Part shown: one piece after another, positions 18,020 to 24,786 of the stretch
How positions within the stretch are numbered: position 1 is the first letter of the stretch
How the letters are laid out: each line of letters begins with the position of its first letter
Source of the DNA: Pantanalinema sp.
GTDB taxonomy: Bacteria; Cyanobacteriota; Sericytochromatia; S15B-MN24; UBA4093
Assembly: GCA_036704125.1 (NCBI GenBank)
Contig: DATNQI010000001.1
Span: forward strand, 1 to 38,103
Length of the DNA: 38,103 nucleotides
Direction of reading: 5' to 3'
Notes under the pieces: generated by a model
The model's database searches: none
What the model was told of the DNA's origin: nothing
What the model saw: only the letters and a program-made list of their open reading frames with translations
Program-made: the position numbers and the translations under genes

Positions 18020-19069
18020 CTAGTCCGAGAAGCGGCTCCAAGCGCGCTTCGCGAGGTCGTACTTCCACACCCCTGAGTTGTCGTAGCTCTTGGCGTAGGC
18101 CGTCTGGGCGTCGGCGAGGACCACCGTGTCAAGCGCCACGTCCTTCGGGATGGCGACGGGCTCGAGGGCCCATGTCGTCTGGGTGAGGGTGTAGACCTCA
18201 CCCATGGGGACCCCCGACTCGACGGCCATCCCGACCACCGTGTCGCCGAAGGCCACGATGCGCGGGGCTCCGAGGGTGCGGTTCCCCGAGGGGAACTTGA
18301 GGGTCCAGCCGTCCGCGTCGAAGTGATAGAGACCCGCTGCCGTCGAGAGCCAGACGTTCTGCGACGAGGGGGCCGCAAGCCCCGAGGCGATCCCGAGATC
18401 GGGGTAGGCGGTCCAGTCCTTCCCGTCGAAGTGCATGACCACCTCGCCCGCGACCCAGACATCGTCCGCGGCGAGCACCTTGACCGAGCCGAGGTTCTTC
18501 CCCGCGGCGGCCTGGACCGCAACCTTGGTCCACTGGCGCTGGGGGGCGTCGTACCTGAGGATCGCGCCCTTGGTCCCGACCGCGTAGCCGACGAAGCCCG
18601 CCGACGCGGAGGCCACCGAGAGGTCGGTCAGGAGCACCCGGTCCTTGAGGGGCTTGGTCGGCGAGAGCACGTCGTCGAGATCCGTCGGCTCGAGCTCCCA
18701 GGTGCCCGTCTCGTAGCGCACGATCCCGGCCCCCGCCGCCCAGCCGACAGAAGCGTCGCTTGCGATCGCGATCGCCCGGCCGTAGCGATCGCTCGGCGCG
18801 TTGCAAAGCTTGGGGCTGCCGGGCAACAGCCGAGCGAGCTGAACGCCCTTCCAGGCGATCGGGCCGATGTCGGTCTGGAAGAGGGCGGTGGTCGTGCCCG
18901 TGACCGGTACGACCTCGCCGTCCCCCTTGCCCCCCCCGCCCGAGACCAGGCCGAGCGAGGCGCCCGGGGCCCACAGGGCGTCGGCCGAGGTCGGCAGCGA
19001 CGTGCACCCGGTGGCGAGCGATGCGAGCAGGATCGCCGTCCCGACGAGATTGATTGATCGAGCCCTCAT
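18020..19069 (-). CDS. Lipoprotein with beta-propeller-like repeats
   Basis: A 349-residue exported lipoprotein with signal peptide and lipobox LATGC (C22). The body shows six or more repeated units that pair a hydrophobic strand with a Trp or aspartate-rich turn, such as ASVGWAAGAGIVRYETGTW, VGYAVGTKGAILRYD and ADDVWVAGEVVMHFDGKDW. This is the style of YCF48/BNR-type propellers, and the last unit is VWKYDLAKRAWSRFSD. A glycine-rich segment (GGGGKGDG) follows the lipid anchor. I know no specific function. It is the third gene of a three-lipoprotein operon; its ATG overlaps the stop of the upstream gene by 4 nt. Confidence 0.85.
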   Translation of the reverse strand: MRARSINLVGTAILLASLATGCTSLPTSADALWAPGASLGLVSGGGGKGDGEVVPVTGTTTALFQTDIGPIAWKGVQLARLLPGSPKLCNAPSDRYGRAIAIASDASVGWAAGAGIVRYETGTWELEPTDLDDVLSPTKPLKDRVLLTDLSVASASAGFVGYAVGTKGAILRYDAPQRQWTKVAVQAAAGKNLGSVKVLAADDVWVAGEVVMHFDGKDWTAYPDLGIASGLAAPSSQNVWLSTAAGLYHFDADGWTLKFPSGNRTLGAPRIVAFGDTVVGMAVESGVPMGEVYTLTQTTWALEPVAIPKDVALDTVVLADAQTAYAKSYDNSGVWKYDLAKRAWSRFSD

Positions 19070-19977
19070 CGTGCGTCACCCCCCAGGACGAAGTAGGAGA
19101 CGCCCCACACGGCGGCGTCGTAGGTACCGTTGGTCAGATCGGTGAAGGTGTCGTCCGAGACGGCATCGATCACCACATGCCCCCGGCCGGGGGTCTGCGG
19201 GAAGGTGAAGGTCCCCGCGTACAGGCCGTTGCCTTCGTCCTTGAGCGGCACGTGCTCGCGCAAGGGCGGCCGCGACATGAAGGTCCAGACCGGCGCGGGC
19301 GCTCCTCCGGCCTTGCCCTCGACCTTGACCTCGACCCGGGCCTGGCTCCCGGGCTGGACCCGAGGCGCCAGGTCCGAGGCTATCTGCTCGCCCGGCTGGA
19401 TCATCAGGGCGGGCTTGCCGTCCACCTTGAGGCGCACCATGGTGATGGAGAGCTTGGTGGTCGCCGGGGCGAGGGCCATGGGCGAGAGGGCATCGAGCTC
19501 CCAGACGCCCGCGCGCTTGACCAGCCGCGCGCTCCGGCGGGCGGTCTCGACGTAGGGCTTGGTCACGAACGTGTTCTGCCAGGCGTAGTCGGCGACGAAG
19601 CGGGCGGGGCGGTCCTGGGAGAAGACCGCCTCGGCCGTCAGCTGGCGCAGCGCGTCGGTCCGGAAGTCGATGGCCATGCGATCGACCACCGAGGATGCGG
19701 CCTGGGTCGTCTTGGGGTAGCTGCGTCCCCAGCGGCGCGGCAGCCCGTCCAGGGCGCCGCCGTCCGAGAAGATTCCGACCCCGTCGTTGACGAGCTGCGA
19801 AGGCTCGAAGAAGGGACGGTAGTCCTTCGATTCGAGAAGGGCCGAGATCTCGGCCTTCTCGCGGTCGGCATCGAGCTTCGGCGTGTCGATCGGAGGCTGC
19901 CCTCCCAGCTCGAAGGCCCATTGGCACCCGACGAGTGCCGCCGAGACCCCGAGGATGCCGATGAGCTTGGCCATCAT
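19066..19977 (-). CDS. Lipoprotein of unknown function
   Basis: A 303-residue exported lipoprotein; the signal MMAKLIGILGVSAALVGC ends in the lipobox LVGC. The middle is rich in charged helices (EKAEISALLESKDYRPFF, DRMAIDFRTDALRQLTAEAV) and the C-terminal half is beta-rich (RVEVKVEGKAGG, GNGLYAGTFTFPQTPGRGHV), ending in DAAVWGVSYFVLGGDAR. The C-terminal region resembles an immunoglobulin-like domain. No family comes to mind. It lies 40 nt after the preceding lipoprotein gene and overlaps the next by 4 nt. ATG 19977 and 19974 are adjacent; I took the first. Confidence 0.8.
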   Translation of the reverse strand: MMAKLIGILGVSAALVGCQWAFELGGQPPIDTPKLDADREKAEISALLESKDYRPFFEPSQLVNDGVGIFSDGGALDGLPRRWGRSYPKTTQAASSVVDRMAIDFRTDALRQLTAEAVFSQDRPARFVADYAWQNTFVTKPYVETARRSARLVKRAGVWELDALSPMALAPATTKLSITMVRLKVDGKPALMIQPGEQIASDLAPRVQPGSQARVEVKVEGKAGGAPAPVWTFMSRPPLREHVPLKDEGNGLYAGTFTFPQTPGRGHVVIDAVSDDTFTDLTNGTYDAAVWGVSYFVLGGDAR

Positions 19978-20017: not shown

Positions 20018-20902
20018 TCAAAGCTTGTTAGGACGCTCAATTATGGCACCGGTGTAGGCGTCCAGCAAGTATTTGCCGCGGACGTAGCTCGTCTTGGGCG
20101 CCACGTAGCGGTCATCCTGGGGCACGTCCCAGTCGTAGCGGTTGCCGGTCTTGCCGCCGTAAGAGGAGCCGGAGTCGTAGTAGTAGACATCCTCGTCGTC
20201 GTAATAGGCGTCGCCGTAGTAGGGGCCATAGACCGAGGCCTTTTGGGCGGCAAGCGTCTGGCGGGTCGCCACGCTGGAGTCCAGCTCGTAGACCGCCCCG
20301 CCGTTGACGGTGGTGCGCAGGGTGATCGCCATGCCGGGAGCCCCGACGCCCATCCCGATGTCGAGGGCGGTCTCGATGGCCTTGCCGAGCAGGATGGTGC
20401 GCGGGAAGTCGACCGAGGCCAGGGTGTCGCCGGTGTCGTCCTGCTCCTCGGGGGCGAGCAGATCGCCCTTGCCCGTGTAGACGAAGTTGAGCAGGCGATA
20501 CTTGAAGGTCGAGGGCACGACGGCCTGGGCCCGGTAGCTCGCGCTCGCGCCGGGTGCGGGGCTCGCGCTCGCGCTCGGCGTGGGGGCCAGGGCCTGCACC
20601 TGGACCCGGTAGGTGAACTCCCAGGCGCTGGTCTTTGCCACGCGGCCGTTGGTGCCGACCATCTGGGCCTGAACGCGGACCAGATCGGCATCCGGGTAGT
20701 GGAGGCTCAGGTAGCGCTGGACGGCATGGTAGGCGTCGAAGAGGGTCGAGCCGTCCATGTCGTAGGCGGGAGCGCGCTTGGCGGTGCTCCCCGCGGCGTA
20801 GCCGGTCGAAACGGTGTTGAAGTCCCTGATCACGCACCCGGTGAGCGGCGTGAGCGCGCAGCAGGTGGCGGCGAAGAGAGAGAGAAGGCGGGAAAATCGC
20901 AT
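20018..20902 (-). CDS. Lipoprotein with Tyr/Asp-rich tract
   Basis: A 294-residue lipoprotein with lipobox LTGC (C23), first gene of the operon. Residues 50-105 look like an alpha/beta domain. A Ser/Ala/Pro low-complexity linker (TPSASASPAPGASAS, 108-122) separates it from a second region. Residues 225-258 are extremely rich in tyrosine, aspartate and glycine (YYGDAYYDDEDVYYYDSG), a flexible, possibly metal-binding or adhesive segment. No family recognised. GGAGG lies 6 nt before the ATG. Upstream are three 12-bp direct repeats and a -10-like TATGCT (20942-20947). Confidence 0.82.
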   Translation of the reverse strand: MRFSRLLSLFAATCCALTPLTGCVIRDFNTVSTGYAAGSTAKRAPAYDMDGSTLFDAYHAVQRYLSLHYPDADLVRVQAQMVGTNGRVAKTSAWEFTYRVQVQALAPTPSASASPAPGASASYRAQAVVPSTFKYRLLNFVYTGKGDLLAPEEQDDTGDTLASVDFPRTILLGKAIETALDIGMGVGAPGMAITLRTTVNGGAVYELDSSVATRQTLAAQKASVYGPYYGDAYYDDEDVYYYDSGSSYGGKTGNRYDWDVPQDDRYVAPKTSYVRGKYLLDAYTGAIIERPNKL

Positions 20903-20958
20903 GGCGTCCTCCTGTCGGTGCACGATGCCTTGACAGGATTGAGCATAGGCAAGCCCGC

Positions 20959-20994
20959 TCACATGGGTGATCACATGGCGGATCACCCTGGAAA
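20959..20994 (-). promoter_or_regulatory. Three 12-bp direct repeats, candidate BTAD-regulator operator
   Basis: TCACATGGGTGA, TCACATGGCGGA and TCACCCTGGAAA follow each other with an exact 12-bp period. Read for the minus-strand lipoprotein operon, they occupy the -35 region. TATGCT (20942-20947) is a plausible -10, 11 bp nearer the gene, and there is no TTGACA-like box. GGGTGATC/GATCACCC (20965-20972 and 20981-20988) also forms an inverted repeat within it. SARP/AfsR-type winged-helix BTAD regulators are known to bind such tandem repeats at -35. Confidence 0.5.
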
Positions 20995-20998
20995 AAAT

Positions 20999-23900
20999 CT
21001 ACGCGCTCCCCGAGAGAATCCGCGCGTAGACCTCTTTGGACTCGGCGGCGGGGCTGACGCCGAGCTCTTGGGCGAGGATCGCCTCAAGCTGCTGGTAGTG
21101 GCGCACAGCTCCCTGGCGGTTGCCCAGGCGATGGAGCGCGGTCATCTTGGCCCGGTGCGCGAACTCGGCGCAGGCGTCGACCGCGAGCGCCCGATCCGCC
21201 CAGGCCAGGACGGTCTCGAAAGCACCGGTCCCCTCGTGGATGGAGAGCAGGCGCTCGAAGGCCGAGAGCGCGCGCTGGTGGAAGTGCTCCTGGGTGGCCT
21301 GCACCCAGAGGCTCTCGTCGAGATCCGCCAGGAAGCGCCCCCGGTAGAGCTCGAGCGCCTTCTCCAGGGCCAGGGTCTGCTGCGGGAGGCTCAGCGCGGC
21401 ATCCTTCGCCTGATCCAGGTGGTACGCGAACTCCTGGACGTCCAGGGCGTAGGGGGCGCCGAAGTTGAAGAAGTACTTGCCGTCGCGCCACTGGATGTAG
21501 CGCGAGGGGGCGTTCTTGACCAGCGCGGGCTCGAGGGCCTGCCGCAGGCGGCTGATGATCATGAGGATCGCCCCGCGCGAGACGTCCTCGTCGCCGTACA
21601 GCAGCTGGGCGAGCTGCTCGCGGGTCACGCCCTGGCGCTGGTGAAGAAGGTAAGCGAGCACGAGCTTGGTCTTGGTGCCCTGCCACTGCTTGGTGGCGAT
21701 GGCCCCCGTGGGGGCGACGGCCTCGAAGGCACCGAAGCAGCGCAGGCGAAGCGCGCTCTGGAGCGATCCGGCTGCCTCGCGCGCGACCTCGGGGCTCGCG
21801 CCAGGCTCGCTCGCGGGTTCGAGGGGAGGAAACTGAGCGAGCAGCACCCGGTAGGCGTTGGCCTCGCAGATGCCGCGCGCCTCCTCCCAGGTCGCGAACG
21901 CCTCCGCCTCGCCCCGGGCCTGCTGGACCCGCGCCAGGTAGAACAGCGCCTGCGCGTGGCGGTAGCGGTAGCCCTGGCTCTCGAGGGTCTTGCGGGCGAT
22001 TTCGAGGATCTCGGCGGCCCGCTCGAGCTCGCCGCGGTCCAGGGCCAGCTGGCCGGCGGGAATCTGCAGGTCGATCATGCCGGGGGCCTCGATGGGCATC
22101 CCGCGCAAGGCGATCGCCTGCCTCAACAGCTCCTGGGCCCGGTCGTACTGGCGCTGGAGGCGCGCGACCTCGGAGAGGCCGCTCAGGGCCTGGGCCTCGA
22201 GGGGCCGGTCCCCCATGGACAATGCCCCCTCGCGCGTCTGGTGGAAGAAGTCGGCGGCCTTGGCCTCCTGACCGAGACTACATGCGATCATCCCGAGGGT
22301 CAGTGTGGTCCAGAGCGCGTCGCGGCGCGCCCCGAGTTGCTGGGCGAGGGCGAGCCCCTCCTCGGCCACCTTCCACGCCTCGTCGTAGGCCCCCTGGGAG
22401 TGATGGATGGCGGCCAGGTTGTTGTAGGTGGCGGGAAAAGCGCGGCGCCCCCCCGCCTCGGCCTGCCGGATGGACTCGCGATAGGTTGCCACGGCGCGCT
22501 CGAAGTCGCCCTGGCGCGCGTAGGCGAGCCCCAGGTTGTGAAGCACCTTGCTCTGGCCCACGAAGTCCTCGGCGCGCCGGTAGAAGTCCCGCGCGCGCTC
22601 GAACGCGCCGAGGGCCCCGCGGGCGTCGCTGGCCATCTGGAAGGCCATGCCCAGGGCGTTCCAGGCAAAGGCACGGCCCGGCAGGTCGTCCTCGGGCAGC
22701 ACCGAAAGGGCCTGCTCGGCGAGTGCCGCGAGGCGCGAATCGCCGCGAGACCCCCAGATCGCGGCCTGGTAAGCGAGCGCACGTCCCTGCGCGAGGCGAT
22801 CGCCCTCGGCCTCGGCGAGCGATGCTGCGCGCTCGAAGCGCGAGAGGGCGACATCGGAGCGGCCCCACAGGCGCTGGATCTCGCCGCCGTAGAGCAAGAG
22901 CCAGGCCGAAGCGTCGGTGAAGTCAGCGGGGAAGCGCTGAAGCAGCTGATCGAGGGTGGACAGGCGAACCTGCGCCAGGTAGCCCGGAGCGATAAGGCAA
23001 AGGACTTCGGCGGCCTGGGGGTAGAGGCCCCCGTCCAGGAGCACCGCGAGGGCCTCTTCCGGATGGGCCTGCGCCCACTCGGAACCGATCCGGTGCCGAA
23101 GCGCGCGCACGGCCTCGGGCGCGAGCGTCGCCTGGAGCTTGTCGAGGAGGAAGGCCTGGAAGATGGGGTGGTAGTAGCTCTCGGCCGACTCGGCCCGCGT
23201 CAGGATCAGGTTGGCCCGCCGAAGGGCATGGATCGTCTCCTCGGCATCCGCCAGGCCGAGGGCCGCACTGCAGATGCCGGGCTCCACGATGGGCAGCAAG
23301 GAAGTCTTGAGAAGGAAGTCCTGCCGCTCGGCGGCAAGCTCCGCGAAGACCTCCTGGGCGAGGTAGTCGAAGAGGGAGGGCGCCCCCTCGTGGGATCGAT
23401 TGAGCGGCTCGCTGTGCTGGGCGGCCATGATGAGGCCCGCGGCCCAGCCCTCGGTCGACTGAAACAGGGTGAGGGCGTCCGCCTCGGCGATCGCGCGGCC
23501 CGAGACGGAGCGCACCAGGGTGCCCACCTCGCTCGGGCTGAAGCGCAGATCCAGGATGCCGAGCTCCACGAGTTGCTGGCGCACCTTGAGCTGGGGCAGG
23601 CGCAGCGGGGGCTGGGAGCGGGAAATGAGGAGCAGCTGCACGTTCTCGGGAAGGTAGCTGATGAGGGCCTCGATCGCCTGCACCACCGGCTCGGCCGCAT
23701 GCACCGCATGGAAATCGTCCAGCACCAGGATGAAGGGGGCCTCGTCGCGCTCGCCCAGCTCCTCGGCGAAGAGGCCCATGAGGCTCGGGACGATCGGCGC
23801 GGGGTCGGGGCTCGCGCTGAGCAGCTCGCGTGCCTGGCTGGTGGCGCCTGGCCAGGCAGCGGTCGCCCCGCCGATCAGGTAGTGCAGGAAGGTCGCGAGG

Positions 23901-24133
23901 TCCGCGTCGTAGGCGTCGAGGTTGATCCAGCAGGAGCGCGCGCCGGTCAGGATGACGTAGTCGGCCACGGTGGTGCTCTTGCCGTAGCCGGGCCCGGCGC
24001 ACACGAAGGTGAGGCGCGCGCGCGGATTCATGCCGGCGCCCAGGCGCTCGACGAGCCCCGCCCGGCGCACGAAGGTGTCAGGGACCGAGGGGGCGCGCAA
24101 TTTTCGCTTGATGAGGGGGAAGGGGCCGCTCAT
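20999..24133 (-). CDS. MalT-like ATPase transcriptional regulator with TPRs and C-terminal BTAD domain
   Basis: A 1044-residue STAND-type regulator. The N-terminal NTPase has Walker A GPGYGKST (47-54) and Walker B ILVLDDFH (about 135-142), then the MalT-type winged helix (about 240-330, RQDFLLKTSLLPIVEPGI). A long tetratricopeptide region (about 350-780, e.g. KVLHNLGLAYARQGDFERAV) follows. The last 245 residues, from LRLRCFGAFEAV, hold an OmpR-like winged helix (REQLAQLLYGDEDVSRGAI) and a bacterial transcriptional activation domain (BTAD), ending QELGVSPAAESKEVYARI. It lacks the LuxR helix-turn-helix of MalT itself. TGGTACACT lies 6 nt before the ATG with no spaced ribosome site, suggesting a leaderless mRNA. 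The lipoprotein operon starts about 100 bp downstream on the same strand and is the likely target. Confidence 0.92.
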   Translation of the reverse strand: MSGPFPLIKRKLRAPSVPDTFVRRAGLVERLGAGMNPRARLTFVCAGPGYGKSTTVADYVILTGARSCWINLDAYDADLATFLHYLIGGATAAWPGATSQARELLSASPDPAPIVPSLMGLFAEELGERDEAPFILVLDDFHAVHAAEPVVQAIEALISYLPENVQLLLISRSQPPLRLPQLKVRQQLVELGILDLRFSPSEVGTLVRSVSGRAIAEADALTLFQSTEGWAAGLIMAAQHSEPLNRSHEGAPSLFDYLAQEVFAELAAERQDFLLKTSLLPIVEPGICSAALGLADAEETIHALRRANLILTRAESAESYYHPIFQAFLLDKLQATLAPEAVRALRHRIGSEWAQAHPEEALAVLLDGGLYPQAAEVLCLIAPGYLAQVRLSTLDQLLQRFPADFTDASAWLLLYGGEIQRLWGRSDVALSRFERAASLAEAEGDRLAQGRALAYQAAIWGSRGDSRLAALAEQALSVLPEDDLPGRAFAWNALGMAFQMASDARGALGAFERARDFYRRAEDFVGQSKVLHNLGLAYARQGDFERAVATYRESIRQAEAGGRRAFPATYNNLAAIHHSQGAYDEAWKVAEEGLALAQQLGARRDALWTTLTLGMIACSLGQEAKAADFFHQTREGALSMGDRPLEAQALSGLSEVARLQRQYDRAQELLRQAIALRGMPIEAPGMIDLQIPAGQLALDRGELERAAEILEIARKTLESQGYRYRHAQALFYLARVQQARGEAEAFATWEEARGICEANAYRVLLAQFPPLEPASEPGASPEVAREAAGSLQSALRLRCFGAFEAVAPTGAIATKQWQGTKTKLVLAYLLHQRQGVTREQLAQLLYGDEDVSRGAILMIISRLRQALEPALVKNAPSRYIQWRDGKYFFNFGAPYALDVQEFAYHLDQAKDAALSLPQQTLALEKALELYRGRFLADLDESLWVQATQEHFHQRALSAFERLLSIHEGTGAFETVLAWADRALAVDACAEFAHRAKMTALHRLGNRQGAVRHYQQLEAILAQELGVSPAAESKEVYARILSGSA

Positions 24134-24184: not shown

Positions 24185-24218
24185 TTGCCGGGCCCGGGCC
24201 GGTGTGCTACACCGGCCC
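24185..24218 (+). promoter_or_regulatory. Promoter with overlapping perfect inverted repeat
   Basis: TTGCCG (24185-24190), a 17-bp spacer and TACACC (24208-24213). A perfect 10-bp inverted repeat, GGGCCGGTGT (24196-24205) and ACACCGGCCC (24209-24218), spans the -10. It could be an operator or an attenuating hairpin for the 24247 gene. Confidence 0.4.
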
Positions 24219-24246: not shown

Positions 24247-24786
24247 ATGGCGAACAAGCTGACAGACCAGGTGATCGCGCGCGCGGCCCGAGCCGGCGCG
24301 GACTGCCGCGGCTCCTTTCGGGACATCGAGAGCGCCGAGCGCGCCTTCTGCAAGCTTCAGGCGAGTGGCCTTCGTGACGACTGCATCTCGCTGGAGGTGG
24401 TGGACGACTGCCCCGCCTGCGCGGCCGAGCGTGCCGGCATGGCGGACCCGATCGCGGAGATCGTGATCGCCCGCGCCCAGGGGGCAGGGGCACTCGCGGG
24501 CAGCGCCCTCGGCCTCGGGATGGTGGGATGGCCGGGGAGCCCGGTCATCGGGGGGACGGGCTGGGTCGATGGCTTCGCCGCGCTGTGCGTGATCGGGGCC
24601 TGGGGGCTCAGCGGCGCCATTCTCGGCGCGCTGGCCGGCGCGGCCGTCACCGAGCTGCCCATCGCTCGAAGAGGAGGGCGGCCGCCCCACCGGCACTACG
24701 TGCTGGTGCTGCGGCCGCCCTCAGGGATGGAGCAGCGGGCGATTGCCGTGCTCGTGGAGGCCAAGGCCAGAATCGAGCCCGAGTAG
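24247..24786 (+). CDS. Membrane-associated general-stress-type protein
   Basis: A 179-residue protein. An N-terminal ferredoxin-like part (about 20-52, CRGSFRDIESAERAFCKLQ then CISLEVVDDCPAC) is followed by a glycine/alanine-zipper membrane segment (AQGAGALAGSALGLGMVG and LSGAILGALAGAAVTELP), then a C-terminal strand pair (HYVLVLRPPSG). This layout is that of the general stress protein/DUF1269-like family, in which a glycine-rich hydrophobic hairpin is set between two halves of an alpha/beta domain. A CPAC motif could bind metal or form a disulfide. GGACGGAGG lies before the ATG. It is divergent from the BTAD regulator gene and converges on pfkA. Confidence 0.75.
   Translation: MANKLTDQVIARAARAGADCRGSFRDIESAERAFCKLQASGLRDDCISLEVVDDCPACAAERAGMADPIAEIVIARAQGAGALAGSALGLGMVGWPGSPVIGGTGWVDGFAALCVIGAWGLSGAILGALAGAAVTELPIARRGGRPPHRHYVLVLRPPSGMEQRAIAVLVEAKARIEPE

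Follow-up and report, generated by a model that had tools for sequence, protein, structure and literature searches.

A conserved direct repeat with SARP-like geometry as the predicted operator of a putative MalT-SARP regulator of surface lipoproteins in Sericytochromatia

Short tandem repeats at the -35 position of a promoter, next to the gene of a large putative DNA-binding protein, raise the question of whether protein, repeats and downstream genes belong to one regulatory circuit. We examined such a locus from Candidatus Sericytochromatia, a non-photosynthetic and uncultured class that is sister to the cyanobacteria. The window, by which we mean the whole stretch of DNA analysed, is the entire contig C1 (38,103 bp) of a 3.5 Mb draft genome labelled G000. 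We compared this genome with those of related Sericytochromatia, the nearest of which (G001) belongs to a different genus. Because the genomes are drafts, absence of the box described below from some of them carries little meaning.

We located the repeat and its promoter on the strand that encodes the lipoproteins. On the forward strand, TCACATGG at 20959-20966 and 20971-20978 and TCACCCTG at 20983-20990 succeed one another at exact 12-bp steps, and AGCATA at 20942-20947, which reads TATGCT on the minus strand, is separated from the closest copy by exactly 11 bp. These coordinates agree with an initial annotation of the locus. In the direction of the genes the layout is (GTGATC)-CATGTGATC-CATGTGAGC at 12-bp steps and then the -10 element (TATGCT); the minus strand reads AGGGTGATCCGC CATGTGATCACC CATGTGAGCGGG CTTGCC TATGCT, with the first lipoprotein start codon 39 bp further on. 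Half-site 1 (20971..20977, minus; CATGTGA, core TGTGATC) and half-site 2 (20959..20965, minus; CATGTGA, core TGTGAGC) are 12 bp apart, and the -10 element (20942..20947, minus) comes 11 bp after CATGTGA, or 8 bp after the GTGAGCG core. The extra upstream half-site (20983..20989, minus; AGGGTGA, core GTGATC) proved to be a complete GTGATC half-site in the coding direction (GGTGATCCG), better than its 5/8 match implies, and is absent from that offset in the orthologous G001 promoter. The repeats do occupy the -35 position of the lipoprotein operon, as first proposed, and a good match to TTGACA is missing there. We predict that transcription starts near 20935.

The neighbouring gene (20999..24133, minus) encodes a regulator of 1,044 residues that joins a MalT-like STAND ATPase and TPR region to a C-terminal OmpR-type winged helix and BTAD, an architecture we term MalT-SARP. 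Pfam profiles recognized BTAD (E = 3e-22), TPR_MalT (1e-19) and Trans_reg_C (3e-5, just under the cut-off), so that the winged helix and BTAD first read from the sequence are both recovered. NCBIfam profiles matched MalT (NF003420) over residues 7-534 (E = 1e-60) and AfsR over residues 779-1042 (E = 1e-19), both below their equivalog cut-offs. The P-loop and Walker B-like motifs, GPGYGKST and LVLDDFH, are intact. Profile and fold matches delimit a C-terminal SARP-like DNA-binding/BTAD module (residues 779-1042; 21008..21799, minus), which matched AfsR chains with an E value of 3e-21. An AlphaFold2 model of the C-terminal 249 residues (pLDDT 94) found its best PDB folds in AfsR (8k60/8hvr) and EmbR (2fez), with TM scores of about 0.70-0.75. 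A search of genome contigs with the single regulator protein as query gave zero matches. Eight regulators yielded an alignment too divergent to serve as a scan query, and a profile search with an alignment query returned two relatives already known together with distant homologs in Chloroflexota, Bacillota, Nitrospirota and others.

A search for the box ahead of the regulator's own gene found none, and we therefore rejected autoregulation through it. That upstream region has features of its own. A perfect 10-bp inverted repeat, GGGCCGGTGT-n3-ACACCGGCCC, lies at 24196-24218, between the regulator and a divergent gene starting at 24247; no similar inverted repeat was found at the corresponding place in G001. 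The divergent gene (24247-24786) specifies a glycine-rich, membrane-like product and looks related by eye to the divergent G001 gene at L002:757-1305, so that synteny may extend upstream.

Downstream of the repeat lie three lipoprotein genes, all on the minus strand. The first (20018..20902; 294 residues, lipobox LTGC) has an ortholog in the same place in G001 (43-49% identity) and weaker homologs in G007 and G009. The second (19066..19977; 303 residues) is predicted to be mostly beta structure, and a fold search with its model returned no convincing structural relative. The third (18020..19069; 349 residues), whose start overlaps the stop of the second, has homologs with 36% identity in G001 and 34% in G009, and shows a weak YCF48/BNR-like match (PF14870, E = 0.002) that falls under the cut-off. 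All three genes thus have homologs in G001 and G009, and in G003 and G005 the first target directly behind the box is a homolog of the second gene. A paralog of the first lipoprotein at G000:C26:38436-38993 (43% over residues 46-234) showed no box when its locus was scanned for a CATGTGA pair.

Is the repeat conserved? The initial annotation had proposed looking for it upstream of orthologous operons and elsewhere in the genome, and regarded lack of conservation in relatives as grounds for abandoning the idea. We found that box, spacing and position are kept between regulator and lipoprotein gene in five other genomes (G001, G003, G005, G007 and G009). The shared architecture consists of two copies of YGT[G/C/T]ATCG placed 12 bp apart, with 8 bp from the last copy to TANNNT; across sites, the repeat unit is YGT[G/C/T]ATCGNNNN. 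In G001, CATGTGA-tcggc-CACGTGA-n11-TATTCT lies between a regulator orthologue of 52% identity and the lipoprotein orthologues. A lipoprotein gene likewise follows GCTGTGA-tcggt-CACGTTA-n11-TAAGGT in G007, TACGTGA-tcggt-CATGTTA-n11-TATATT in G009, CATGTCA-tcggg-GATGTCA-n11-TACGAT in G005 and GATGTCA-tcgcg-CGTGTCA-n11-TAGCAT in G003. Two half-sites are therefore the rule, and the three copies first described, although present, are peculiar to the window promoter. For G009 we infer the identity of the regulator, since the contig holds only its 3' end; G009:C234 was considered as the regulator adjoining this box and dropped when a tree paired it with a box-less G007 paralog. A single clade of box-adjacent regulators was neither rejected (p-AU 0.25) nor demonstrated.

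The box also recurs genome-wide ahead of surface-protein genes. Whole-genome scans gave five boxes in G000 (C1, C4, C49, C64 and C79, the last degenerate) and five in G001 (C19, C14, C13, C35 and C54). Four of the five G000/G001 box pairs precede BLAST orthologues with 42-58% identity: the operon adjoining the regulator (43%), a secreted protein (50%), a VWA-domain lipoprotein (58%), whose G009 counterpart is likewise preceded by a box, and one other lipoprotein (42%). The fifth pair, G000:C49 and G001:C13, precedes two small lipoproteins between which BLAST shows no similarity. In the G003/G005 family, the GTCA form of the box precedes a different set of lipoproteins, homologous among themselves. 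Overall, a gene with a lipobox follows 18 of 19 boxes, compared with 3.2% of random positions; beyond VWA, no target domain was recognized at family level. Anchoring the five promoter pairs on the box gave 74% identity within the operator and 25-28% in the flanks, the operator value being inflated because the sites were picked by pattern. Twelve genomes of the class yielded no orthologue beside a box; nine of these had no match, and the matches in the other three (G012, G014 and AT-rich G015) are unlike the box. Without the -10 element, the box pattern has more than 60 one-mismatch matches per genome and is unspecific because GTGATC is common in genes; sites lacking a -10 were therefore not counted. 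Two-mismatch matches at G000:C102, G001:C57 and G005:C62 were set aside as noise, lying within genes or without a lipoprotein. The targets are best explained as a regulon in which about five promoters, that of the adjacent three-gene operon among them, drive surface lipoproteins or secreted proteins. The original expectation of a lipoprotein target and no antibiotic cluster thus stands as to class, but its extent was too narrow at a single operon.

We then set the locus against known systems. AfsR places two SARP protomers next to each other on a pair of 11-bp repeats that stand in for the -35 contact, and 8 bp separate its 3' repeat from the -10 (PMC10936776). AfsR half-sites read CGTT(T/C)ATCGNN, and a review permits spacers of 4-15 nt (PMC10972967), a range that includes the 5-nt spacer found here. 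Like AfsR, the large SARP of Streptomyces coelicolor that acts at the afs box of afsS, the protein combines an OmpR-type winged helix followed directly by BTAD with a STAND ATPase and TPRs. In both systems two direct repeats cover the -35 position, T-N-ATCG is common to both half-sites and, aligned on ATCG, the last G lies 8 bp before the -10; the same 8 bp hold here when the half-site is taken as GTNATCG. The likeness first drawn to AfsR and the SARPs accordingly holds for the fold and the -35 repeats, but not for the step or the domain order. SARP steps are 11 bp (as in AfsR) or 22 bp, whereas all sites here have 12 bp, and SARPs carry the DNA-binding domain and BTAD at the N terminus, whereas here they occupy residues about 797-1042 of 1,044, behind a MalT-type N terminus. 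A C-terminal module and a 12-bp step depart on two counts from what is usual for SARPs. The targets also differ, being an antibiotic regulator gene for AfsR and predicted surface lipoproteins in Sericytochromatia.

Other relatives resemble parts of the protein. MalT, the STAND-family maltose activator of E. coli, shares the N-terminal ATPase region and MalT-type TPRs but ends in a LuxR-type HTH in place of the SARP module (Trans_reg_C plus BTAD), and no maltose genes are among the predicted targets here. PimR and other SARP-LAL proteins also join a SARP module to a large ATP-binding part and use operators of two or three heptamers; their SARP part is N-terminal, however, their repeat units are 10 or 11 bp and their targets are antifungal clusters. 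EmbR of Mycobacterium tuberculosis shares the winged helix and BTAD fold (2fez, TM 0.75), but has an FHA domain and phosphorylation input and lacks the STAND and TPR parts. We found no report of this regulon, or of 12-bp SARP operators, in the open-access literature. What is new here is a SARP-like geometry in which the step is 12 bp and the domain order is swapped.

A residue in the recognition helix would connect this regulator with this box. The helix (RGAILMIISRLRQALEP; residues 853-869; 21527..21577, minus) places Met858 at AfsR Thr88 and Arg862 at AfsR Arg92, and AfsR Thr88 contacts the base preceding ATCG. In the window's family and in that of G007/G009 the box has G or T at this place, and the regulators of the window, G001 and G007 have Met at the position of Thr88. 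In the G003/G005 family the base is C, and the regulators of both genomes have Val at that position. This joint change of residue and base supports binding of the box by this protein; as a single family-level contrast, it is supportive and not proof.

Together, these comparisons make it very probable that an ATP/inducer-gated, SARP-type activator, encoded beside the box, drives an envelope-lipoprotein regulon from it. The repeat would be the operator for the neighbouring regulator, two of whose SARP-type C-terminal domains would bind YGTNATCG half-sites head to tail, 12 bp apart. The bound pair would overlap the place where a -35 box is missing and recruit RNA polymerase to the -10, 8 bp past the last half-site, as AfsR does. 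Binding and activation by this regulator are predictions from sequence. By analogy with MalT and AfsR (PMC10936776), binding of ATP and an inducer would probably be needed to release an activator otherwise held off by its MalT-like ATPase and TPR regions.

The strongest competing explanation, which we consider unlikely, is that the box is a true operator for another OmpR/PhoB-type or SARP-type regulator, with the neighbour present by coincidence or as one among several. In its favour, every genome carries a number of MalT-SARP paralogs, similar tandem sites are bound by response regulators, and the regulator's own gene has no box in front of it. Against this, the box adjoins this regulator in the window and in all five other genomes, boxes are largely missing where no box-adjacent orthologue was found, the recognition residue covaries, and the repeats beside the paralogs are different ones, spaced at 11 bp.

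A repressor or dual-control site is more improbable still. The box does overlap the core promoter, where repressors also sit. Yet hexamers at -35 spacing in the ten promoters have 0-4 of 6 matches to TTGACA, leaving none with a good -35, as expected if the promoters depend on an activator; and the box has the geometry of SARP activators, whose binding substitutes for the -35 contact.

We give very little weight to chance repeats enriched by pattern-hunting. Taken alone, the window is mildly unusual and weak evidence: 62 of 2,000 dinucleotide shuffles of the intergenic stretch equalled its repeat (p about 0.03), and the significance of the repeat comes from its conservation in relatives. The pattern was, moreover, refined in the course of searching. 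Spacings nonetheless proved fixed despite free alternatives. Across two genomes, GTGATC-N(0-20)-YGTGA-N11-TANNNT, which allows 21 spacings, gave six matches, all at the 12-bp step. GTGA-N7-YGTGA-N(3-19)-TANNNT, which allows 17 distances, gave 14, of which nine lay at exactly 11 bp and the rest were scattered; these nine comprise all but one of the ten regulon sites, the exception being the degenerate C79, which does not fit the pattern. With the two discovery sites excluded, the chance is about 5e-6 for the repeat step and 1e-6 for the -10 distance. A reversed-pattern control was too lenient and underestimated chance because GTGATC is common inside genes; the spacing tests are independent of it. 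Orthologous targets and lipobox enrichment also speak against chance, and conservation in independent genomes already refutes it.

A CRP/FNR-type palindromic site (TGTGA...TCACA), prompted by the likeness of TGTGA to a CRP half-site and by GTGATCAC in the window copy, was ruled out by the layout, every other site being a direct and not an inverted repeat, and is the least credible reading.

Regulators of this kind form a large MalT-SARP-like expansion, with 29 matches to this protein in G005 and 24 in G007. Several paralogs, L063 (G009:C16), L058 (G001:C35), L093 (G003:C122) and L057 (G000:C45), are followed directly after their stop codon by candidate tandem boxes whose step is 11 bp, for example CTGTAAC-n4-ATGTAAC-n10-TACGCT at G001:C35 and CTGTAAC-n4-CCGTAAC-n10-TACGGT at G003:C122. 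These precede an AMP-ligase-like gene or a lipoprotein, with a chance of 2-7% per single case. Since paralogs seem to use an 11-bp step, the 12-bp subfamily is the odd one out. Separately, L137 (G000:C35:25206), CATGTGATCGCGATGTGACCGCGATCACC, pairs two half-sites, spaced at 11 bp, with an inverted GATCAC nearby; no open reading frame was found over it or just after.

A wider and tentative reading, which we hold possible though doubtful, is that MalT-SARP regulators of Sericytochromatia are expanded, self-contained modules, each carrying an operator directly behind its stop codon and driving a lipoprotein suite of its own. The window module would then have moved to a 12-bp step and its box spread to at least four further surface genes; if so, the 12-bp step would demand a different SARP dimer interface. 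Two questions follow: how a pair of SARP domains accommodates a 12-bp step, and which signal the MalT-like half senses. The analysis also names a candidate specificity residue and its base, which can be swapped. To our knowledge, SARP-type activation is known almost exclusively from actinobacterial antibiotic clusters. The predicted regulon, with its half-site, geometry and target list, would place a SARP-like activation geometry outside that setting, in the control of surface lipoproteins.
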